Of a stretch of DNA of 21,901 bases, positions 7,602 through 21,197 are shown in pieces. This stretch comes from a virus. Where the stretch lies: IMG/VR virus record IMGVR_UViG_3300003323_000831, positions 1 to 21,901 of that record. One strand, written 5' to 3'. How positions within the stretch are numbered: position 1 is the first letter of the stretch; each line of letters starts with the position of its first letter. The notes under the pieces are model-generated. The model made no database searches. It saw only the letters and a program-made list of their open reading frames with translations, and had not been told where the DNA came from. The translations under genes and the position numbers were made by a program.

Positions 7602-8027
7602 ATGCCTTCAGTGAATCCGGGTCCGGCGGCAACGACCGCGACCAACACTCAGCCTCCGTACAGCCCGGAGGTTACCGTACAGACGATTGCGGTAAGCCTC
7701 ACGCCCGTTTCGGTTGCGACGATCACGACTGCCGAACAGTCGTTCGGCGCGAACGGCGTCACCCAGGCCACTGCCGCGACGGGCATCAAGGCCGGCGACA
7801 TCATCGTCGGTGTGAACCCGCCTGGTATGCAGGCCGGTGTCGTGGTGGCAAACGCGCGTGTCGATCCCGCAGTGGACGACAAGTTCTACCTGCAGTTCGT
7901 GAACCCCACGGCCGGCGGTGTAGTTCCGACGGCCGGGCTCTATCTGCTGACGGTCATGCGCTTCAACCAGAGCACGCGCCCGCCGGGCAGCACGACCTAC
8001 GCGTTCGCGCCGACGAGCGTGGTGTAA
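7602..8027 (+). CDS. Capsid-associated protein A (tandem paralogue 1)
   Basis: A 141-residue Ala/Thr/Val/Pro-rich beta protein immediately after the coat gene, the usual place for head decoration proteins. Its core (TTAEQSFGANG, GDIIVGVNPPGMQAGVVVANARV, LQFVNPTAGGVVPTAGLY) recurs in the next gene, so the two are paralogues. The N-terminus carries a Pro/Thr-rich tail of about 30 residues. A strong AAGGAG site precedes the ATG at 7602. No enzymatic motif is visible. A decoration or capsid-stabilising role is inferred only from location and composition. A GC-rich hairpin follows the stop codon. Confidence 0.8.
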   Translation: MPSVNPGPAATTATNTQPPYSPEVTVQTIAVSLTPVSVATITTAEQSFGANGVTQATAATGIKAGDIIVGVNPPGMQAGVVVANARVDPAVDDKFYLQFVNPTAGGVVPTAGLYLLTVMRFNQSTRPPGSTTYAFAPTSVV

Positions 8028-8069: not shown

Positions 8070-8399
8070 ATGCCCGGTCCATCAGATATTCCCCGCGGCA
8101 ATATCGCGTTGTCGATGCTGCTCGGTGTTCCGCTTTCTCCCGCCGCAGTCGGCGCCAACACCACGGCCGAACAGACATTCACGGTCAACGGCTTGCTGGT
8201 CGGCGACGAAGTCGCAGCCACAAAGCCCACCACTCAGGCAGGTCTTGGTATCGTGAATGCGCGCGTCACGGCCGCCAATACGCTCGGCATCACGTTCTCG
8301 AACAACACGGGTGGTGGTATCACGCCGACAGCGGGCGAGACCTATGTCATCGCAGTGAACCGTCCTTCCAATCTACCGCTGCCTGCGGCGATCACCTGA
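8070..8399 (+). CDS. Capsid-associated protein B (tandem paralogue 2)
   Basis: A 109-residue beta-rich protein paralogous to its upstream neighbour. Shared blocks are NTTAEQTFTVNG, GDEVAATKPTTQAGLGIVNARV, GITFSNNTGGGITPTAGETY and a final V.R motif. It lacks the long Pro/Thr N-terminal tail of the first copy. A very strong GAGGAGGGG site precedes the ATG at 8070, directly after the TTCG hairpin, which suggests separately tuned translation. Its stop overlaps the next ATG by one base (TGATG). A structural or decoration role is inferred from position; no catalytic residues are apparent. Confidence 0.8.
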   Translation: MPGPSDIPRGNIALSMLLGVPLSPAAVGANTTAEQTFTVNGLLVGDEVAATKPTTQAGLGIVNARVTAANTLGITFSNNTGGGITPTAGETYVIAVNRPSNLPLPAAIT

Positions 8400-11245: not shown

Positions 11246-11583
11246 CGAACCAGTTTAACAGCCTGCCGACCTACCGCGTCCCGCTGCAGGATAAGGGCGT
11301 GACGGGGAAGGACTGGTACCTATTCTTCGTGAACATCTTCCAGGGGCGCGCGCCGGCGGCGGTGGTGCCCACAACGCCTGGAGCATCACCCTACACGTAC
11401 ACCGCGCCCGTGAAGGGCTTCATGCTCATCACCGGAGGCACGGTGTCGCTCGTTGAGTTCTCCCGGGATGGAACGACGTATTACAGCTACGGGGCGACCT
11501 CAGGACAGTTTCAGGTGAATGCCTCTGACCTGATCCGGGTGACCTACACAGTCGCGCCAACCATGACTTTCGTGCCCACATGA
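11242..11583 (+). CDS. Small beta-rich tail-region protein
   Basis: A 113-residue protein of unknown function, probably a virion or tail accessory. Residues 1-37 (NSLPTYRVPLQDKGVTGKDW, then YLFFVNIFQGRAP) resemble the opening of small phage proteins downstream of gp10-like genes. The rest is Thr/Tyr/Val-rich and probably a beta-sandwich (residues about 48-110). The start overlaps the gp10-like stop as ATGA, and the end overlaps the cupin-like gene as ATGA, so it is tightly embedded in the tail operon. No enzymatic motif is present. Confidence 0.75.
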   Translation: MTNQFNSLPTYRVPLQDKGVTGKDWYLFFVNIFQGRAPAAVVPTTPGASPYTYTAPVKGFMLITGGTVSLVEFSRDGTTYYSYGATSGQFQVNASDLIRVTYTVAPTMTFVPT

Positions 11584-12116
11584 GCGACATCGAGGTGCTG
11601 GACAGCGGCGCCATCATCGAGGGGTTGCCGCCGACCCGCGAGGACATCCTACGGCTCGAGACTCATATGCGTGAGATTGAGCAGCTCGACTGCCCGCTCA
11701 CGCACACCTTCGCGCCAGGCAGTTATGCGCGGGGCATCCAGCTCCCGGCAGGCGCGCTCATCGTGGGCAAGATCCACTTGCACGCCCACTTGAATATCAT
11801 CTCTCGCGGCCTCGTGACTGTCGTTACCGAGTTCGGCCGCATGCAGATCGATGCACGAAAGCAGCCGGTTACGTTCACTTCCCAGCCGGGAACGAAACGG
11901 GCACTATACGTCCACGAAGAGACCTGGTGGACAACTGTCCACCTGACTGATTCGACCGACCTCGCAGAGATCGAGCGCGAAATCATCGCGCCAACCTATG
12001 CCGAGCTGGATGCCGCTATGGCGAGAGCGTGCATCGAGCTCATAGATGCGTCCCCGGACGCAGGCAGGGTATCTCTACGACCTGGGTCGCCGTCGCTATC
12101 GGTGGTTCCGCGCTAG
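11580..12116 (+). CDS. Cupin-like protein in tail operon
   Basis: A 178-residue protein with a probable RmlC-type cupin barrel. The first metal-type motif is GKIHLHAHLN, giving H66, H68 and H70. The second half contains TSQPGTKRALYVHEETWWTTVH with H112 and H121. The canonical cupin Glu between motifs is not obvious, so metal binding and enzymatic activity are uncertain. The N-terminus (TREDILRLETHMREIEQLDCP) is a charged helix. Cupin-like genes are known among phage tail-region genes, but their substrate is unclear. The ATG at 11580 overlaps the upstream stop as ATGA, with no good ribosome site, so it is probably translationally coupled. Its last 88 nt overlap the next open frame. Confidence 0.75.
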   Translation: MSDIEVLDSGAIIEGLPPTREDILRLETHMREIEQLDCPLTHTFAPGSYARGIQLPAGALIVGKIHLHAHLNIISRGLVTVVTEFGRMQIDARKQPVTFTSQPGTKRALYVHEETWWTTVHLTDSTDLAEIEREIIAPTYAELDAAMARACIELIDASPDAGRVSLRPGSPSLSVVPR

Positions 12117-12523
12117 TCGGCGCAGGCGCCTCCTACCTCGGTAGCAAAAAGCAAGGGGACGCCGCCAAGAACGCCGCAGGGCTGAACATGGAAATGTTCA
12201 ACGTCCTGAACCGGCAACAGCAGCCGTTCATCAACTCTGGATACGGCGCGCTTTCTAAGCTGAACACTCTGCTGGGACTCAATGCGCGCCCGGGCATGGC
12301 TGCACCGGGTATGCCGCCCCCCAGCGCGCCGGCATATCGGCCAACCCCCGGCGGCGGCGTGACGCCAATCCTGCAGCCTGGGCCATCAGGTCCTGACGTG
12401 CATCTCAGCGACCCGATCCAGCCGGGCGGTGGAACCACAGCGCTCAATCGCATCCTGCTCCTGCGCGCGATGCACGGTGACACTCAGGCCGGTCAGCTGC
12501 TGCAACGGATGGGCGGCGGATGA
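12029..12523 (+). CDS. DNA-transfer (ejection) protein, N-terminal part
   Basis: Up to 164 residues. A hydrophobic, Gly/Ala-rich segment at about 19-38 (VAVAIGGSALVGAGASYLGS) is followed by a helical stretch with QQPFINSGYGALSKLNTLLG (about 63-83) and then a Pro/Gly-rich linker. This arrangement is the N-terminal half of glycine-rich phage ejection proteins, which enter the cell envelope during DNA injection. The GTG at 12029 lies deep in the cupin gene with a poor ribosome site. The first 15-18 residues look non-native. The only good ribosome-like sequence (GCAGGG, 12064-12069) precedes an ATC codon at 12071, so the true start is uncertain. It ends in an ATGA overlap with the gene carrying the C-terminal half. 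Confidence 0.65.
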   Translation: MHRAHRCVPGRRQGISTTWVAVAIGGSALVGAGASYLGSKKQGDAAKNAAGLNMEMFNVLNRQQQPFINSGYGALSKLNTLLGLNARPGMAAPGMPPPSAPAYRPTPGGGVTPILQPGPSGPDVHLSDPIQPGGGTTALNRILLLRAMHGDTQAGQLLQRMGGG

Positions 12524-13186: not shown

Positions 13187-14620
13187 ATGCCGGAACTCGT
13201 CGGACTCGGCGCACAATCGCCCGATGTGCTGGGGAAGCTGTCTGATGTCCTGAAGATCAGGAGTCAGCAGCAGGCTCTTGCAGGACAAGCAGCCGAAGTG
13301 CAAATGACGCAGCAGTCGGCGCGTCAGCGCGCGGCGCTGGCCGGCTACGACTGGAATAAGCACATCGGCGAGGATGGAACGTTCGACCTCAACACGCTGA
13401 ACGATCCCGAGCTTCAGCGCGCGGCCGGCGACCAGTACCTCGACGTCGTGCAGCGAGCAATCACCGCGAAGGAGTCGCAGCTTCAGGCCAAGCGCACGCT
13501 CACCAGCCTTCGCGGCGAGCAGCGCGCGGCATTTGCCGAGATGATGGGCGCCTTGCGCTCGGACAAGGATGTCGCGGAGGACAACGAGAAGGGCCGTCAG
13601 AAAGTCACGCAGGCGATGATCCAGTACGGCGAGCAGTACGGCGATGATGTGCTGCCCGTGCTCAAAGCCTACGCAGGACCGCTTCAGAAGGCGCCGAAGG
13701 GGCGCATGTCGGATGCCTTGCGGGCAATTCAGTTGCAGGCGCATTCGGCGGAGAGCCAGCTCGCTGTGCAAAATCCGCAGTACACGAGCTCGGGACGCAA
13801 GCTCGTCAACGTCAACCCGAATGCGGCGGCGGGCGGCGATATTCCGCTCGAGATCGCGCCGGGCGCGCAGGCGGTCACGCGAACTGATCAGCTCGGAAAC
13901 GTCTATGTCGAGTATCGAGACGCCGCCGGCAATGTCATCGGAACCGCCCCAATGGGCGGTGAAGGGGGTCCTGCGCGATTCGGACCTGGCGAACGCCATA
14001 CCTTCGAAGCCCAGGCCGAATCCAACTTCCAGAACGTCGATGCGAACCGCAAGGCAGCCAGCATGGCGCCTCAGCAACTCGACCAGATCAACAAGGCGCT
14101 CGACCTGTCGAAGCAGGTATCTACGGGCGCGTGGGCTTCTCGTCGCGCGCAAGTCGAAAGCGGAATCGGATCGCTCATTCCGGGTTTTGAAGGAATGGAT
14201 GATGCCTCGAAGCTGCAGGAACTCGACAAGTTCGCCGAGCGCATCGCGACCGATGCGTCTCGGGTGCTCGGCGTGAATGCGCGTACCGACGCCGAGCGCG
14301 AGTCGATCCACAAACAGAACGCGAACATTGGGTATACCCCGCAAGCTATCCAGGCGGTGCTTCAGTACGCCAAGGCGCAGACCATGGCGATGGAGGCCAA
14401 GGGTAATGCGCAGGAGAAATGGCTCTCGCAGAAGGGTAACGGGATCACCAAGCAGCACGAGTTTGAGACTGCGTTCCGCCAAGCATACGACCCGGTGATC
14501 TTCCAGCTTCAGGCGGCGGACCCCGAGGAGCGCAAGAAGATCATCGGCTCGCTCGATGCGAAGGAAGCCGCATCACTCAAGGAAAAGCGCTCGAAGTTGC
14601 GTGAGCTTGGAGCCTTCTGA
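13187..14620 (+). CDS. Internal virion / DNA ejection protein
   Basis: A 477-residue, mostly alpha-helical, Ala/Gln-rich protein in the ejection-protein block (P22 positions of gp7, gp20 and gp16). Residues 1-60 form an Ala/Gln helix (RSQQQALAGQAAEVQMTQQS). A middle beta-like insertion with GNVYVEYRDAAGNVIGTAP (about 243-261) separates it from a long helical half with NANIGYTPQAIQAVLQYAKA. No catalytic motif is visible. Function by position: ejected into the host envelope with the genome. The ATG at 13187 follows the upstream stop by one base. The stop TGA shares its A with the next ATG (TGATG). I cannot assign it to a specific P22 homologue. Confidence 0.7.
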   Translation: MPELVGLGAQSPDVLGKLSDVLKIRSQQQALAGQAAEVQMTQQSARQRAALAGYDWNKHIGEDGTFDLNTLNDPELQRAAGDQYLDVVQRAITAKESQLQAKRTLTSLRGEQRAAFAEMMGALRSDKDVAEDNEKGRQKVTQAMIQYGEQYGDDVLPVLKAYAGPLQKAPKGRMSDALRAIQLQAHSAESQLAVQNPQYTSSGRKLVNVNPNAAAGGDIPLEIAPGAQAVTRTDQLGNVYVEYRDAAGNVIGTAPMGGEGGPARFGPGERHTFEAQAESNFQNVDANRKAASMAPQQLDQINKALDLSKQVSTGAWASRRAQVESGIGSLIPGFEGMDDASKLQELDKFAERIATDASRVLGVNARTDAERESIHKQNANIGYTPQAIQAVLQYAKAQTMAMEAKGNAQEKWLSQKGNGITKQHEFETAFRQAYDPVIFQLQAADPEERKKIIGSLDAKEAASLKEKRSKLRELGAF

Positions 14621-16173
14621 TGGACGACATCGATACGCTACTCGATGCGCGCGCCAAGGACGCAGCGGAGCCGGATGGCTCCGACGTGGATGCATTGCTC
14701 GACGCGCGCGCTAAAAGCGCCACTGCACCGGCCCAGGCTAAAAGCAACGCCGCGGAACCATGGTGGAAGGGCGCGGTGAAAGAGGGCGGCCGTCAGCTTG
14801 CGCTCACCGGCCGCGCTGTTGGGAACGGGGTTGTGTCGCTTCCGATGATGGCGATGGATGCCGGCGTCTCGACGCGGAATCTCATCGAGAATGCTGCGCA
14901 CGGTGTTTATCCGTCGTGGCAGAACCTGAATCCTTTCTCGGCCGAAGGCTACGCGCCCGGAAAGTATGGCCACGAACTGCCGTCGCAGACATTCAACAAG
15001 GCGCTGAATGACGCGGGAGTGCCCGAGCCTCGCACCACAAGCGAGAAAGTCGCGAACTTCATCGAAAGCACTCTCGCCGGATCACGTATTCCGGCTCCGC
15101 AGGCCGCCAATCAGGCGCCAGTGGGCTTTGTGCGGCCCACGGCAAACCCTGCGGAGCAGGTACTTCGGGAGTCGCGCGAGGCTGGCTATGTGGTACCGCC
15201 CACTACGGCCAACAACTCGACCGTTAACAAACTGGCCGAAGGGTTCGCGGGCAAGATCTCGACCGCGCAGGCCGCATCGATCAAGAACCAGGAAGTGACG
15301 AACGAGCTTGTCCGCAAGGCGCTTGACCTGAAGTCAGGTCAGCCGATCACACTCGAAGCACTGGAAGGCATTCGCAAAGCAGCGGGCAAAGTCTACGAAC
15401 AAATCGGAAACGCAGGAGAGATCCGCCCCGATGCGCAGTATCTGGACGATCTTGCGCAGATCGGCCGAGGCGCCGATCAGATAGCGGAAGCCTTCCCGGG
15501 TGCCAATGTCGGCGCAACGAAGCAGATCAAGGAAGTGGTCGATTCGCTGCTCCAGGACAAGTTCGATTCGAAGGCCGCCCTTCAGTATCTGCGTGAACTG
15601 CGCAAGCAGGCGACCGGAAACCTGTCCGGCATGAATGCGGCGGATCCTGCAAAGCAAGCGCTCGGTATGGCCCAGCGAGAAGCGGCCTCGACGCTCGAGG
15701 ATCTCATCGGCCGTCATCTTGAGGCGAATGGAATGGGCGATGTAGCCCAGTCCTTTGCGCAGGCGCGTCGCGCAATCGCGATGACCCACTCTGTCGAGAA
15801 CGCGCTCAATGAGACTACCGGCAACGTGATCGCTGGGAAGCTCACGCAGCAGATGGTGAAAGGGAAGCCACTCTCAGGAGAGCTGGAGACTGTGGCGCGG
15901 TTCGGCCAAGCCTTTCCAAAGGCCGCGAAAGAAGTCACGGAGTCGATGCCGGGTGTGTCGCCTCTCGACTGGGCCATCTCGATCGGGAGCGCGATTGGCA
16001 CGGGCCACGTTGCGCCTCTGGCCGGTGTGGCGGCCAGGCCGGCTATGCGTTCAGCGCTGCTATCGGACTGGTGGCAGCGGTCACTGACGGATGCCGCGCC
16101 CTACGCGGCGCCGGACACCATCGGACTTGCGCCGAGCGCTGCGCTCCAAGGAGGCCAGCGTGCCGCTCAATGA
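14620..16173 (+). CDS. Ejection protein with N-terminal repeat
   Basis: A 517-residue internal virion protein candidate, the last of the ejection block (the place of P22 gp16-type proteins). The N-terminus has two copies of an acidic motif: DIDTLLDARAKDA (residues 3-15) and DVDALLDARAKSA (22-34). Next is a hydrophobic segment (about 60-85, GNGVVSLPMMAMDAG). The central 150-430 region is a series of Ala/Glu/Lys/Leu helices. A second Gly/Ala hydrophobic stretch lies near 455-475 (WAISIGSAIGTGHVAPLAGV). GGAG precedes the ATG. The 3' end contains a strong AAGGAGG (16148-16154), which is Gln-Gly-Gly coding sequence here. Role in membrane passage of DNA is inferred from position and hydrophobic segments. 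Confidence 0.72.
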   Translation: MDDIDTLLDARAKDAAEPDGSDVDALLDARAKSATAPAQAKSNAAEPWWKGAVKEGGRQLALTGRAVGNGVVSLPMMAMDAGVSTRNLIENAAHGVYPSWQNLNPFSAEGYAPGKYGHELPSQTFNKALNDAGVPEPRTTSEKVANFIESTLAGSRIPAPQAANQAPVGFVRPTANPAEQVLRESREAGYVVPPTTANNSTVNKLAEGFAGKISTAQAASIKNQEVTNELVRKALDLKSGQPITLEALEGIRKAAGKVYEQIGNAGEIRPDAQYLDDLAQIGRGADQIAEAFPGANVGATKQIKEVVDSLLQDKFDSKAALQYLRELRKQATGNLSGMNAADPAKQALGMAQREAASTLEDLIGRHLEANGMGDVAQSFAQARRAIAMTHSVENALNETTGNVIAGKLTQQMVKGKPLSGELETVARFGQAFPKAAKEVTESMPGVSPLDWAISIGSAIGTGHVAPLAGVAARPAMRSALLSDWWQRSLTDAAPYAAPDTIGLAPSAALQGGQRAAQ

Positions 16174-16174
16174 A

Positions 16175-16384
16175 TCAGTAGCCCAGCTTCGCGCGATTGT
16201 GGGCGGCTTGGTCGTGGATTCGGCGCCTGCTGATACCGAATCGATGAAGCGCGCCCCACGTGAGCAGCGCAACCACGATGACGCTCGTCGTCACGAGCCA
16301 CGAGCGCGGAAGCCACGAAAGGATTTCCGCCATCCCGATGGCAGTCGCGATCCAGGCAAGCATCCAGTTCAGGAGCGGTGGCAC
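16175..16384 (-). CDS. Antisense two-helix membrane protein (moron candidate)
   Basis: A 69-residue protein on the strand opposite the late operon. It has two hydrophobic helices, about residues 4-23 (LLNWMLAWIATAIGMAEIL) and 29-46 (WLVTTSVIVVALLTWGAL), and a basic, cytoplasmic-looking tail (HRFGISRRRIHD). By hand count about 80% of its codons end in G or C. The plus-strand frame over the same bases scores about 58%, so I prefer the minus strand. It starts at a GTG (16384); an ATG at 16363 is an alternative, and neither has a clear ribosome site. It sits in the only sizeable plus-strand gap between the ejection and tail-protein genes. Possible roles include a holin-like or superinfection-exclusion protein, but no family is recognised. 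Confidence 0.55.
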   Translation of the reverse strand: MPPLLNWMLAWIATAIGMAEILSWLPRSWLVTTSVIVVALLTWGALHRFGISRRRIHDQAAHNRAKLGY

Positions 16385-16413: not shown

Positions 16414-17373
16414 GTGGTAACGACCGTCCTCACCCCCAATGCGAAACAGCAGTTCTTCGACAACAACGGCCGTCCGGCTGTTGGCGGGAAGCTCTTTACA
16501 TACATCGCGGGGACCACGACGAAACAGTCAACTTATGTCGATTCGGGCGGCGTGTCCCTGAACTCGAACCCGATCATCCTCGACTACAGGGGCGAATGTA
16601 ATTTTTGGGTGCCCCCGAACGTGCGCTACAAGTACGTGCTGGCGCCGTCGACGGACACGGATCCGCCGACGAATCCCATCTGGACCGTGGACAACGTCGT
16701 GAGCTCGCAGCTCATCACGCTGTACGGCGGAATCGACACGGGCGTGGTGAACGCCTATGTCTTGAATTTCACCGCTAACTTTACGTCGTACACCGACGGC
16801 ATCGTCATCTACTGGATACCGGGCAACACCAACACCAGTGCCAGCACGATCAATGTGAACGGTCTTGGGCTCGTGTCGATCGTGAATCAGGACGGCACAG
16901 CACTAAAATCGAGCCAGCTCGTCGCGAACCAAGTAGCGACTATCATGTACAGCGGGGGCGTGTTCCTGCTGATCTCTTCTGGTATCGCGCCAAGCGTAGT
17001 GAGTGGGAATTTCACGCCAACGTGGACCGGATTTGGCGGTTCACCGCCAACCGGGAAAATCTTCTATCAGAAGATCAGCGGACTTGTGATCCTTCAGTGT
17101 GACGCAATCGGGATGACCGGTGTCTCGACATCAACGGCGCTGACGATCACAAATCTGCCCGCGGTCCTGCGTCCTCAAACTGACCCTGCGCCGCGCATAG
17201 TCTGCATGGTGACGGATAACGGCTCCCAGGCAGTCGGTGCGATGAGCTTTGGCGTCGCTCCGGGAACGGTTGTGTTTTACAAAGGCACGGCGCCACCGAA
17301 TGCGGCTGGGTTCACTGCAGCCGGAAACAAGGGCCTCTCACCGTACCAGACGCTGATGTGGAGCTCGCTTTGA
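16414..17373 (+). CDS. Tail protein with tailspike-type anchoring domain
   Basis: A 319-residue tail protein. Residues 1-95 (LTPNAKQQFFDNNGRPAVGG, then FTYIAGTTTKQSTY, NPIILDYRGE and PPTNPIWTVDN) form the N-terminal particle-binding type domain found on podovirus tailspikes. The next gene repeats it. The middle and C-terminal parts are Thr/Ser/Val-rich beta sequence with FTPTWTGFGGSPPTGKIFY near residue 210; no beta-helix or hydrolase motif is evident. The GTG at 16414 is chosen because GAGG (16401-16404) precedes it and the domain begins immediately. An upstream in-frame start at 16378 would add 12 residues unlike the family. It could be a short receptor-binding fibre or an adaptor that carries the tailspike. 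Confidence 0.75.
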   Translation: MVTTVLTPNAKQQFFDNNGRPAVGGKLFTYIAGTTTKQSTYVDSGGVSLNSNPIILDYRGECNFWVPPNVRYKYVLAPSTDTDPPTNPIWTVDNVVSSQLITLYGGIDTGVVNAYVLNFTANFTSYTDGIVIYWIPGNTNTSASTINVNGLGLVSIVNQDGTALKSSQLVANQVATIMYSGGVFLLISSGIAPSVVSGNFTPTWTGFGGSPPTGKIFYQKISGLVILQCDAIGMTGVSTSTALTITNLPAVLRPQTDPAPRIVCMVTDNGSQAVGAMSFGVAPGTVVFYKGTAPPNAAGFTAAGNKGLSPYQTLMWSSL

Positions 17374-17417
17374 ATCTCTCGCCGCTTCCCATTCAAAAAT
17401 TCTTCGACAACAACGGC
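16453..17417 (+). repeat. 18-bp identical repeat in the two tail-protein anchor domains
   Basis: TTCTTCGACAACAACGGC occurs at 16453-16470 and again at 17400-17417, in the same reading frame (FFDNNG) and near the same distance from each gene's start. It is the best-conserved part of a longer similarity covering about 270 nt of each gene, so it reflects duplication of the anchor-domain coding sequence rather than a separate repeat element. The coordinates span from the first copy to the second. Confidence 0.8.
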
Positions 17418-19061
17418 AACCCAATGGTTGGCGGCCTGTTGTTCACGTATGTCGCAGGCACCACAACAAAGATCGCAACCTACAAGGATCAGGTCGGAAC
17501 ACTTAATACGAATCCGGTTGTGCTTGATTATCGCGGCGAGGCGAATGTCTGGCTAGATCAGACACTGACCTACAAGTTCGTGCTCTCGCCGCAGGGTGAC
17601 ACCGATCCGCCCACGAAGCCCATTTGGACAGTCGACAACATCTCGGCGGCAGTTACCTACGCTAGCCTCACGCAGCAGATCATCGGGATGATTCTCTATC
17701 CGCGCACGGCCGCGGAGATCGCAGCGCTGGTCACGCCAACTAACTACGCCTATCCCGAGCTGAATCTTCTAAGGTACGGAGCTGATCCGACTGGAGCTGC
17801 AAGCTCTAACGCTGCGATGACAAGCGCAATCGCGGTGTGCGGATCGACTGGCGGAACGATCGTCGCACCTCCGGGCGTGTATCTATTCACAGGAAATTCG
17901 CTGGTAATTGATCTCACTTCTAAGGTGGGAATTATCATTCAAGGAACGGGGTCTCAGACTTCTGGAGCTCAACCCGCCGTGCGCTTCAATTTCAGCGGCA
18001 CCGGCACTGGCGTGCTCATTAGCATGAACTCGGCCTATGGATGCGCGTTGCGCGGAATTCAGGTTCGTCACACTTCCGCGTTATTCACTGGTACCTACAT
18101 CAAGTGCACCAATACAGCCAGTTCTGATCCTCAGTACTGCGGTGTCTACGACTGCACCTTCGGTGACTCGGCCGGTGCCGGAACTATCCATCTGGATCTC
18201 GACAAGTGCATCAACTTCACGGCCGAGCGGTGCTCGTTCACTCGCGGTAATCCCTCGGTCACTGGCCGTACCGCAAGCACATATTCAAATGTCATCAGGT
18301 TCCGCGATTGCCAGTGGTTCACGAATCCAGCTGTGCCTGTGCAGAATCCAGGCGAAGCCTGGCTGTTTGAGGGCTGTTCGTTTGAGCCGCTGACGTCGAC
18401 CGCGCCGGGCGCAGTCCTGTGCACGAGTGTGACTATCCCTGTAAATGGCATCACATTTGAAGGATGCTGGTTCGGCGATGCGAGCTCAACTGCGGGAACG
18501 TGGATCGAGCTTCAGGGAGGTGGGCTGCACTTTCATGGTAACACCCTTACCGGAAACGCTACGGGAACGACTGGGATCAAGCTGCGCCAATTCGTCGGCG
18601 CAAAGATCGCTGGGAACACATTCGCGGTACTTCTGACCGCGATCGATTTCGCGACAGCCACCTGCTACTCGACGAGTGTGGAAAATAATAACTTCAATAC
18701 AGTCACGAACAACTTCGCAAACCCAGCGAATCACGCACCAGGACTTATCTTCAATCCAAACGGACTTGGAGGGATCACTCCGCCGACGGGACATGGGACA
18801 TTCGCCACCAACGGCTACTCCATCGACGCCAATGGCATCATCGAGCAGTGGGGGGAAGTGACTCTCAATACCAACGTGGCCACGGCGGTTGTTTTCCCGA
18901 AGCAGTTCCCCGCGAGCTGCTGGAATGTGACGTGCTCGATCACCTCGGCGCCAGGTAATCAGTCCATGACCGCGGCCTCGCGCACCACGTCGCAGTTCAC
19001 TTTGACGGTTGGTGGGACTGTCGGCGCTAACACCGTGTGCTGGCGCGCGAGGGGCAACTGA
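17370..19061 (+). CDS. Beta-helix tailspike (possible polysaccharide depolymerase)
   Basis: A 563-residue tailspike. Residues about 1-92 repeat the anchor domain of the preceding gene (FFDNNGNPMVGGLLFTYVAG, PPTKPIWTVDN). Residues about 130-455 match a pectate-lyase-like right-handed beta-helix. The opening LNLLRYGADPTGAASSNAAM and the GGTIVAPPGVYLFTG signature are followed by repeated short strands with Gly/Asn turns. The last 95 residues carry GYSIDANGIIEQWG and FPKQFP, typical of phage tail-fibre C-terminal domains. Spikes of this build bind and often cleave surface polysaccharide; no active site was confirmed. The TTG at 17370 overlaps the previous stop (TTGA) with GGAG at 17360-17363; an in-frame GTG at 17358 has no such site. 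Codon use is less GC-rich than in the neighbours, as expected for exchanged host-range genes. Confidence 0.85.
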   Translation: MNLSPLPIQKFFDNNGNPMVGGLLFTYVAGTTTKIATYKDQVGTLNTNPVVLDYRGEANVWLDQTLTYKFVLSPQGDTDPPTKPIWTVDNISAAVTYASLTQQIIGMILYPRTAAEIAALVTPTNYAYPELNLLRYGADPTGAASSNAAMTSAIAVCGSTGGTIVAPPGVYLFTGNSLVIDLTSKVGIIIQGTGSQTSGAQPAVRFNFSGTGTGVLISMNSAYGCALRGIQVRHTSALFTGTYIKCTNTASSDPQYCGVYDCTFGDSAGAGTIHLDLDKCINFTAERCSFTRGNPSVTGRTASTYSNVIRFRDCQWFTNPAVPVQNPGEAWLFEGCSFEPLTSTAPGAVLCTSVTIPVNGITFEGCWFGDASSTAGTWIELQGGGLHFHGNTLTGNATGTTGIKLRQFVGAKIAGNTFAVLLTAIDFATATCYSTSVENNNFNTVTNNFANPANHAPGLIFNPNGLGGITPPTGHGTFATNGYSIDANGIIEQWGEVTLNTNVATAVVFPKQFPASCWNVTCSITSAPGNQSMTAASRTTSQFTLTVGGTVGANTVCWRARGN

Positions 19062-19066
19062 AAATG

Positions 19067-19258
19067 TCAGCTACCCCAGCGGATCACTTCGCGCTTGCAG
19101 GCCGAGCATCGGTAGTCCGTATGGAAACGATTGCCATGCAGGCGCTCGAGCGTACGGCCATGGAACCCGAGCTTGCAGGCCACTTTTCGTGGCCCCGTGA
19201 CGAGAACGATGACCGTCAGGACCACGGTGACAGCGGCGACAGACCAGATAGCAACCAT
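19067..19258 (-). CDS. Antisense membrane-anchored zinc-ribbon-like protein (moron candidate)
   Basis: A 63-residue protein on the minus strand, starting at an ATG behind a strong GGAGGAG site. Residues 2-21 (VAIWSVAAVTVVLTVIVLVT) form one membrane helix. The remainder contains C28, H33, H41, H46 and a C51-x-x-C54 pair (CKLGFHGR, RFHTDYRCSACKRE), the pattern of small phage or bacterial zinc-binding proteins. By hand count about 73% of its codons end in G or C. The gene ends five bases from the tailspike stop, so it converges on the late operon. Upstream it faces the late small membrane gene at 19345. A role in the envelope (conversion or exclusion) is possible; none is demonstrated by sequence. 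Confidence 0.72.
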   Translation of the reverse strand: MVAIWSVAAVTVVLTVIVLVTGPRKVACKLGFHGRTLERLHGNRFHTDYRCSACKREVIRWGS

Positions 19259-19264
19259 GCCCAG

Positions 19265-19271
19265 ACTCCTC
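19265..19271 (-). promoter_or_regulatory. Strong ribosome binding site for the antisense zinc-ribbon gene
   Basis: On the minus strand this reads GGAGGAG, six to eight bases before the ATG at 19258. An upstream ACTCC (minus strand, complement of 19280-19284) can pair with GGAGT (complement of 19264-19268), so the site could be partly masked in a small hairpin. The strength of this site on the antisense strand is the best evidence that the minus-strand frame is the real gene here. Confidence 0.65.
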
Positions 19272-19344
19272 CTTTTTTCGGGAGTGTACTGAGGCCACGC
19301 AAGCGATTCCAGATGAGCGAACAGAAGAGCCATGAGGGCATCTG

Positions 19345-19620
19345 GTGAATGACGAAATCCTATGGAAAGTGCTTCTCGGGCTGCTCGGCGTGGTGACCGC
19401 GCTGCTGGCATGGCTAGGGAAGCACCACGTGAACAAGCTCGAGGAACTCGACCGGGAGGCCGTCCGCCATCACGACCTTAAGGAGCTTGAGCAGCGGATC
19501 ACGGTCACGCATTCGCGAATGCACGTCGACAACCAGGGGCGCTTCGAAGAGCTGCGGGGAGACATCAAGGACCTGCGTCAGACCATCGAGCGGGTGCTAT
19601 TCCGCGGGAGGGAGCCGTGA
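19345..19620 (+). CDS. Small membrane-anchored coiled-coil protein
   Basis: A 91-residue protein with one N-terminal membrane helix (residues 7-24, WKVLLGLLGVVTALLAWL) followed by a charged, Glu/Arg/Leu-rich coiled-coil-like region (31-85, KLEELDREAVRHHDLKELEQ). Such proteins often precede lysis genes in late operons and may be spanin-like, holin accessories or tail-associated membrane proteins. The order here does not settle which. The GTG at 19345 has GAGGG upstream at good spacing. The gene ends in a GTGA overlap with the next frame. Family not recognised with certainty. Confidence 0.75.
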   Translation: MNDEILWKVLLGLLGVVTALLAWLGKHHVNKLEELDREAVRHHDLKELEQRITVTHSRMHVDNQGRFEELRGDIKDLRQTIERVLFRGREP

Positions 19621-20779: not shown

Positions 20780-20997
20780 AACTGTCCCATCATGCGGTCG
20801 CTACCGCGCAGGTTGGTCTGTCCTACCTGATCGTCATCGGATATCTCGGTGTCATCGTCGCAACCGGCGCGAAATACCTGGCGCAGGACACGGCGAGCAA
20901 CCTCAAGGATGTCCTATTTCTCGTCGCGACATTCTGGTTTCAGCGCCAGCGCACGTCCGACCCACCGAACCCACCAACGGAGACCAAGCCCTCATGA
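20776..20997 (+). CDS. Holin candidate
   Basis: A 73-residue membrane protein directly after the lysozyme. One hydrophobic helix spans about 12-32 (QVGLSYLIVIGYLGVIVATG), and a second, shorter one about 43-56 (LKDVLFLVATFWF), followed by a hydrophilic, Pro-rich C-terminal tail (RQRTSDPPNPPTETKPS). Two helices and a charged tail match class II-type holins, which open the inner membrane for the lysozyme. The ATG at 20776 was chosen because it gives an ATGA overlap and is preceded by GGGGAG; the frame is open from 20710, but the extra N-terminal residues overlap the lysozyme gene. Identity rests on topology and context. Confidence 0.7.
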   Translation: MKLSHHAVATAQVGLSYLIVIGYLGVIVATGAKYLAQDTASNLKDVLFLVATFWFQRQRTSDPPNPPTETKPS

Positions 20998-21197
20998 AAT
21001 CGATTGCTATCCTCGCCGCCGTCGTTTCCCTCGCTGGCTGCGCCACGATCGACAAGGACATCGCACCGAAGGCTGCGGCCGCAGTGATGACCTACTGCGC
21101 CACCCCGCAGGCCGAGCGCATGCTGATTCGCGAGAATGTGAATGCGCGAATCTCGCCGAACGCCATCAAGATCACCTGCGTCGGCGACACGCCCTGA
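20994..21197 (+). CDS. Small phage lipoprotein
   Basis: A 67-residue lipoprotein. The signal peptide ends in a lipobox VSLAGC, with lipidation expected at C16 (MKSIAILAAVVSLAGC). The mature part is short and helical with YCATPQAERMLIRENVN and KITCVGD, including two more cysteines (C35 and C62) that could form a disulfide in the periplasm. The final position after lysozyme and holin suggests an outer-membrane spanin-like or lysis-related lipoprotein. It is not proline-rich like Rz1, so this is not certain. The ATG at 20994 overlaps the preceding stop (ATGA). A stem-loop begins immediately after its stop codon. Confidence 0.75.
   Translation: MKSIAILAAVVSLAGCATIDKDIAPKAAAAVMTYCATPQAERMLIRENVNARISPNAIKITCVGDTP

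Follow-up and report, generated by a model that had tools for sequence, protein, structure and literature searches.

A probable minus-strand gene for a small membrane protein in an accessory slot beside a podovirus tailspike gene

In the current analysis a gene for a 63-residue protein has been identified on the minus strand directly downstream of the tailspike gene in the late region of a podovirus. The gene is very probably real, and its reality together with its location in an accessory slot is held with nearly the same assurance. It would represent a moron, a small accessory gene inserted in reverse orientation at the junction of tailspike and lysis genes, in a podovirus from a partly temperate group. 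The arrangement and the type of accessory slot are already known and the finding is of an ordinary kind; the protein itself is an orphan. The gene is of minor importance on its own; more useful are the recurring pair of slots to which it belongs and the tiny unrelated membrane ORFs found before the receptor-binding genes of related phages.

The late region of the window

The window, which is the whole 21.9-kb IMG/VR virus record analysed here, carries a podovirus late region with the gene order terminase, portal, coat, head-closure protein (phrog_578), ejection genes, two receptor-binding proteins and lysis genes. As far as about 21.2 kb the late genes are encoded on the plus strand, with the exception of two minus-strand ORFs, 16175-16384 and 19067-19258. 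These occupy two positions referred to as slot A, from the ejection-like gene to the first receptor-binding gene, and slot B, directly 3' of the last receptor-binding gene. The features concerned are:

14620..16173, plus strand: large late protein in the position of the P22 ejection protein gp16, as judged by synteny
16175..16384, minus strand: slot A ORF, 69 aa, hydrophobic, with weaker gene evidence
16414..17373, plus strand: first receptor-binding protein, with an N-terminal domain common to the second
17370..19061, plus strand: second receptor-binding protein or tailspike, with a pectate-lyase-like fold and a Gp53-like C-terminus
19062..19344: slot B, the 283-bp interval from the tailspike stop (19061) to the next plus-strand start (19345)
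19067..19258, minus strand: 63-aa orphan gene, encoding an N-terminal membrane helix (about residues 2-21), a basic stretch, and C28/H33 and C51xxC54 around a predicted hairpin
19266..19275, minus strand: ribosome site of the 63-aa gene, AAAGGAGGAG, 7 nt before the ATG at 19258
19345..19620, plus strand: first gene after slot B, a small membrane/coiled-coil protein related to the first post-tailspike gene of the phage L120
20360..20779, plus strand: endolysin (phage lysozyme family), part of the lysis cassette 3' of slot B

The equivalent of the 14620..16173 product in the Xanthomonas phage PBR31 is annotated as 'putative internal protein C'. The tandem receptor-binding proteins (16414-17373 and 17370-19061) have in common an N-terminal domain resembling particle-binding domains; such a tandem pair is also encoded in about 20 related phages, and several others have one copy only. 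Two neighbouring small late genes of the window, 7602-8027 and 8070-8399, each match the relatives of the other and are apparently a duplicated pair. An integrase search of 27 records has identified the gene in 11 of them, and the window record is not among these.

The minus-strand gene and its start

The 63-aa gene is preceded by a ribosome site with the core AAGGAGGAG / AAAAAAGGAGGAG, spaced by 7 nt from the ATG at 19258, and this combination of site and start codon fixes the beginning of the gene there. An antisense gene spanning 19067-19344 had been proposed in the initial annotation. The end at 19067 is retained, so that the gene converges on the tailspike gene, and the start is moved inward, giving a product of 63 aa that is shorter than was first described. 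Position 19344 is not a start codon and is merely the base preceding the next gene. Two further in-frame ATGs, at 19333 and 19411, have been rejected as longer starts, since neither has a good ribosome site.

Long open frames are cheap in the DNA of slot B, since 1343 of 3000 dinucleotide shuffles of the interval contain an ORF that reaches 60 aa or more on one strand or the other. The features carried by the frame are far rarer. The helix of the 63-aa protein reaches a best 19-residue Kyte-Doolittle mean of 2.76; none of the 3000 shuffles yields an ORF with a 19-residue mean of at least 2.5, 19 of them yield an ORF with a ribosome site of at least six matching bases, and the two properties are combined in none. 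An empirical control comprised 6169 start-to-stop antisense ORFs of 55-130 aa taken from within confidently called genes in 810 kb of DNA from the window and its relatives, among which such a helix occurs in 22, such a ribosome site before an ATG in 2, and both together in none. The strong ribosome site, the single membrane helix and the residues C28, H33 and C51xxC54 of the initial description are confirmed, and by these controls the combination of site and helix lies beyond chance. Codon usage is neutral (log-likelihood of +0.03 per codon, against about +0.2 for the neighbouring genes) and therefore lends the gene no support.

That the gap contains no minus-strand gene at all, and is a spacer or accommodates a plus-strand gene of 94 aa at 19064-19348, appears improbable: such a plus-strand ORF exists, its stop overlaps the start of the 19345 gene (GTGA) and codon usage does not clearly favour either strand, but its ribosome site is poor, its product has an unusual, charged composition and matches no family, and the minus-strand ORF has a combination of site and helix unseen by chance.

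A scan with simple sigma-70 patterns has detected no consensus promoter 5' of the 63-aa gene, and a scan with simple hairpin patterns has detected no terminator in the stretch that separates it from the tailspike gene. In slot A one promoter-like site precedes the ORF (16420-16392), at a frequency expected by chance. The slot A ORF begins with GTG, has a hydropathy of 1.8 and no ribosome site, and converges on the ejection-like gene. As a minus-strand ORF to the left of the tail genes, it is directed away from these; of the two minus-strand genes first described as pointing inward, only the one at 19067 does so.

The encoded protein

The protein (MVAIWSVAAVTVVLTVIVLVTGPRKVACKLGFHGRTLERLHGNRFHTDYRCSACKREVIRWGS) is made up of a single helix at the N-terminus, followed by the basic residues GPRK and then by C28, H33 and C51xxC54. 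By the positive-inside rule, an N-terminal helix followed by a basic stretch suggests that the tail faces the cytoplasm; the protein would reside in the inner membrane with a cytoplasmic tail of 40 residues. A single-sequence AlphaFold model of moderate confidence (mean pLDDT 72) has helices at residues 2-21 and 23-30 and a hairpin at 34-41/44-51, the hairpin being placed between the half-sites C28/H33 and C51xxC54. The predicted hairpin and its flanking residues fit a small metal-binding knuckle, a compatibility that is not proof, and the four residues C28, H33, C51 and C54 may hold a zinc ion. Small phage proteins with a C..GxH...CxxC motif (DUF1660-like) have a short metal-binding pattern of this kind. 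The similarity of the 63-aa protein to them is one of pattern and a resemblance only, as the protein has no match in Pfam.

No relatives of the protein have been identified in viral contigs, phage records or plasmids, and searches against PHROGs and PADLOC have likewise given no match. Comparison of the model with solved structures in the PDB revealed no counterpart. The 41 records behind the related loci contain no relative, the single weak match, in PBR31, being interrupted by an internal stop, and no related phage whose late modules are intact carries the protein. The single genome match, in a Geobacteraceae genome (L106), was rejected as a chance one, out of frame and inside an ATPase-like gene. 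A literature search for small zinc-ribbon exclusion proteins has found nothing fitting.

An empty site in a related phage

The best relative of the window tailspike is that of L120, with 50% identity over 482 aa extending to the last residue, and the gene that follows it in L120 is related to the window gene at 19345 (E-value 6e-8). Between these related flanks L120 has 20 bp, against 283 bp in the window, and the window interval is therefore most simply explained as an insertion, with a deletion in L120 as the alternative. The empty site indicates that the 63-aa gene is an inserted accessory gene which is not tied to its type of tailspike. The pattern by which a moron is recognised, presence in one phage and absence from the same junction in another with syntenic flanks, is thereby observed for the 63-aa gene. 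Beyond the related loci in the set, no further phages with the same tailspike tip have been identified.

Minus-strand genes flanking the receptor-binding genes of related phages

Related loci were gathered with three query proteins (head-closure, receptor-binding and endolysin), and the slots were surveyed in 24 phages, the window included, that have their receptor-binding genes in view. Genes were called by one simple scheme trained on the window, and the slot B genes of L113 and L126 were added by inspection. Minus-strand genes concentrate at two points flanking the receptor-binding genes. Slot A contains a tiny hydrophobic minus-strand ORF of 38-77 aa in 11 of the 24 phages, slot B contains a minus-strand gene in 8 of 24, that of the window being one of these, and both slots are occupied in five phages, again with the window included. 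Among 297 other plus-strand genes of the upstream late modules only two minus-strand calls occur, of 32 and 35 aa, and both are doubtful. Tight gene packing elsewhere excludes such genes, so that the pattern reveals where cargo is tolerated and not why. A survey of minus-strand genes flanking tailspikes had been proposed along with the initial annotation, and such genes are indeed found both before and after the receptor-binding genes. The accompanying suggestion of morons travelling with host-range cassettes holds as far as the flanking position is concerned; joint travel is not supported, in view of the empty site of L120, the lack of the protein in every relative and the different cargo that related phages carry at this point.

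In other related phages slot B carries genes of unrelated kinds, which in seven relatives encode predicted surface-modifying or similar enzymes. These include acyltransferase-3 proteins (PF01757) in L113/L019 and L126, both missed or shortened by the gene caller, methyltransferase-like proteins in L112, L015 and, by motif only, L111, and SGNH hydrolases in L014 (assigned by Pfam) and L160 (by similarity to L014). A 71-aa membrane ORF of L107 is an additional candidate. The length of slot B varies accordingly, from 8-29 bp in several cargo-free relatives (G008, G014, G019, G034) to 700-1400 bp with larger cargo. Cargo is present in 7 of 8 long records with an integrase and in 4 of 7 without one, numbers that are too few to reveal a clear association.

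Pairwise matches among the slot A proteins are weak and reflect mostly membrane-helix composition, and they have not been accepted as one family. Tiny unrelated membrane ORFs precede the receptor-binding genes on the minus strand in L108 (7750-7950), L152 (19312-19476) and L160 (16461-16616). Two of the three have strong ribosome sites, the textbook TAAGGAGG of the L108 ORF and AAGGAG, and these ORFs are better candidates for study than the slot A ORF of the window. An HNH-endonuclease-like ORF is encoded on the minus strand of L140 (13514-13891) between its two receptor-binding genes.

Comparison with P22, Sf6 and PBR31

Phage P22 (NC_002371) has the order gene 16 (ejection, plus strand), sieA (minus strand), immunity I genes, gene 9 (tailspike, plus strand), gtrCBA (minus strand), attachment site and int. 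Minus-strand accessory genes are thus found at both points, between the ejection and tailspike genes and after the tailspike gene, which correspond to the two slots of the window in position and in orientation. The region of P22 from gene 16 to the tailspike gene has been named the 'ant moron', and the morphogenetic cluster has no morons at other places (PMC2629481). The two phages differ in what follows the cargo, which is the attachment site and int in P22 and plus-strand lysis genes in the window, and the P22 cargo has no sequence relation to the 63-aa gene.

SieA of P22 is a small inner-membrane protein (PMC10883804, PMC2629481). It has 162-164 aa and three helices, compared with 63 aa and one helix in the window protein, and the SieA motif FxRYPxEAxxFNK is absent from the 63-aa sequence, which also has no family match. 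Judged by sequence, size and motif, the window protein is not a SieA-type member.

Phage Sf6 (NC_005344) has the order tailspike (plus strand), oac acetyltransferase (minus strand) and int, and its oac gene converges on the tailspike gene as the 63-aa gene does. Acyltransferase-3 proteins occupy slot B in two relatives of the window; the window gene, in contrast, encodes a 63-aa orphan that is neither an acyltransferase nor an O-antigen enzyme. The cargo genes of P22 and Sf6 have annotated promoters and terminators, unlike the 63-aa gene, for which the scan revealed no such signals.

PBR31 (MT119766) is the nearest named relative. Its late genes are syntenic with those of the window and it has an integrase. 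Slots A and B contain no called minus-strand gene in this phage; it has an SGNH-type hydrolase gene on the minus strand after the lysis genes, and the product carries the annotation 'possible O-antigen modification protein'. A literature search on window-like gene order in temperate podoviruses has found nothing fitting.

Possible roles of the protein and of the slots

Expression of the 63-aa gene would be separate from that of the late operon and would most likely take place in the lysogen; its product may alter the host envelope or hinder the entry of other phages, as do the products encoded at the same two positions in P22 and Sf6. The full explanation, namely an inserted moron encoding a zinc-binding protein of the inner membrane that is expressed in the lysogen and affects the envelope or phage entry, has in our estimate a slightly better than even chance. 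An exclusion or surface-modifying function taken by itself is suggested by position only and is put forward tentatively, as a possibility short of even chance.

The strongest competing explanation, although we consider it rather unlikely, is that of a selfish or neutral small gene without a role in exclusion, for instance one for a membrane-tethered zinc-ribbon protein that binds DNA or RNA, residing by chance at a spot that tolerates insertion. The orphan status of the protein and the unrelated genes held by slot B in relatives are in agreement with it, and for P22 it has been suggested that the position may merely tolerate insertion (PMC2629481). Against it, an action on the cell surface is known or predicted for most of the identifiable cargo at this place, in the relatives as well as in P22 and Sf6.

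A broader proposal is that, in this group of environmental podoviruses, an exclusion locus of fast turnover encloses the receptor-binding genes from both sides. On the ejection side about half of the phages would have a tiny unrelated membrane protein, and on the tailspike side there would be either a surface-modifying enzyme or a minimal membrane protein like that of the window. This we regard as unlikely. Should it be true, the 63-aa protein would be among the smallest exclusion proteins, and the opposite strand just before and after tailspike genes would indicate where unannotated small exclusion proteins of environmental phages are to be found. The two-sided arrangement itself recurs in a little-studied group of phages.

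The proximity of the lysis genes raises the further idea of a lysis regulator, a membrane protein beside holin-like genes that delays or tunes lysis and obtains a different timing from the minus strand. A distance of 86 bp separates the start of the 63-aa gene from the next gene, at 19345, and weak holin matches (phrog_1350, phrog_198) are found for the small membrane protein encoded by the gene after that one. Relatives in which the site is empty nevertheless retain a similar order of lysis genes, and the identifiable slot B genes encode surface-modifying or similar enzymes and not lysis proteins, so that lysis control has a low probability, well below that of an envelope or entry function.

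Genes in and beyond the lysis region

A 67-aa lipoprotein-like ORF of the window (20994-21197, plus strand) weakly matches the superinfection exclusion family Cor (phrog_1119, E-value 0.004), in the signal-peptide region only, and is more likely a small lysis lipoprotein. L018 encodes an acyltransferase-3 on the plus strand 3' of its lysis genes (11417-12379), its slot B being empty. Small CsrA-like ORFs with the pattern MLILTRR.GE..MIG... have been identified just past the lysis region in L015 (12846-13076), L029 (9004-9225), L205 (3649-3837) and L122 (13257-13364).
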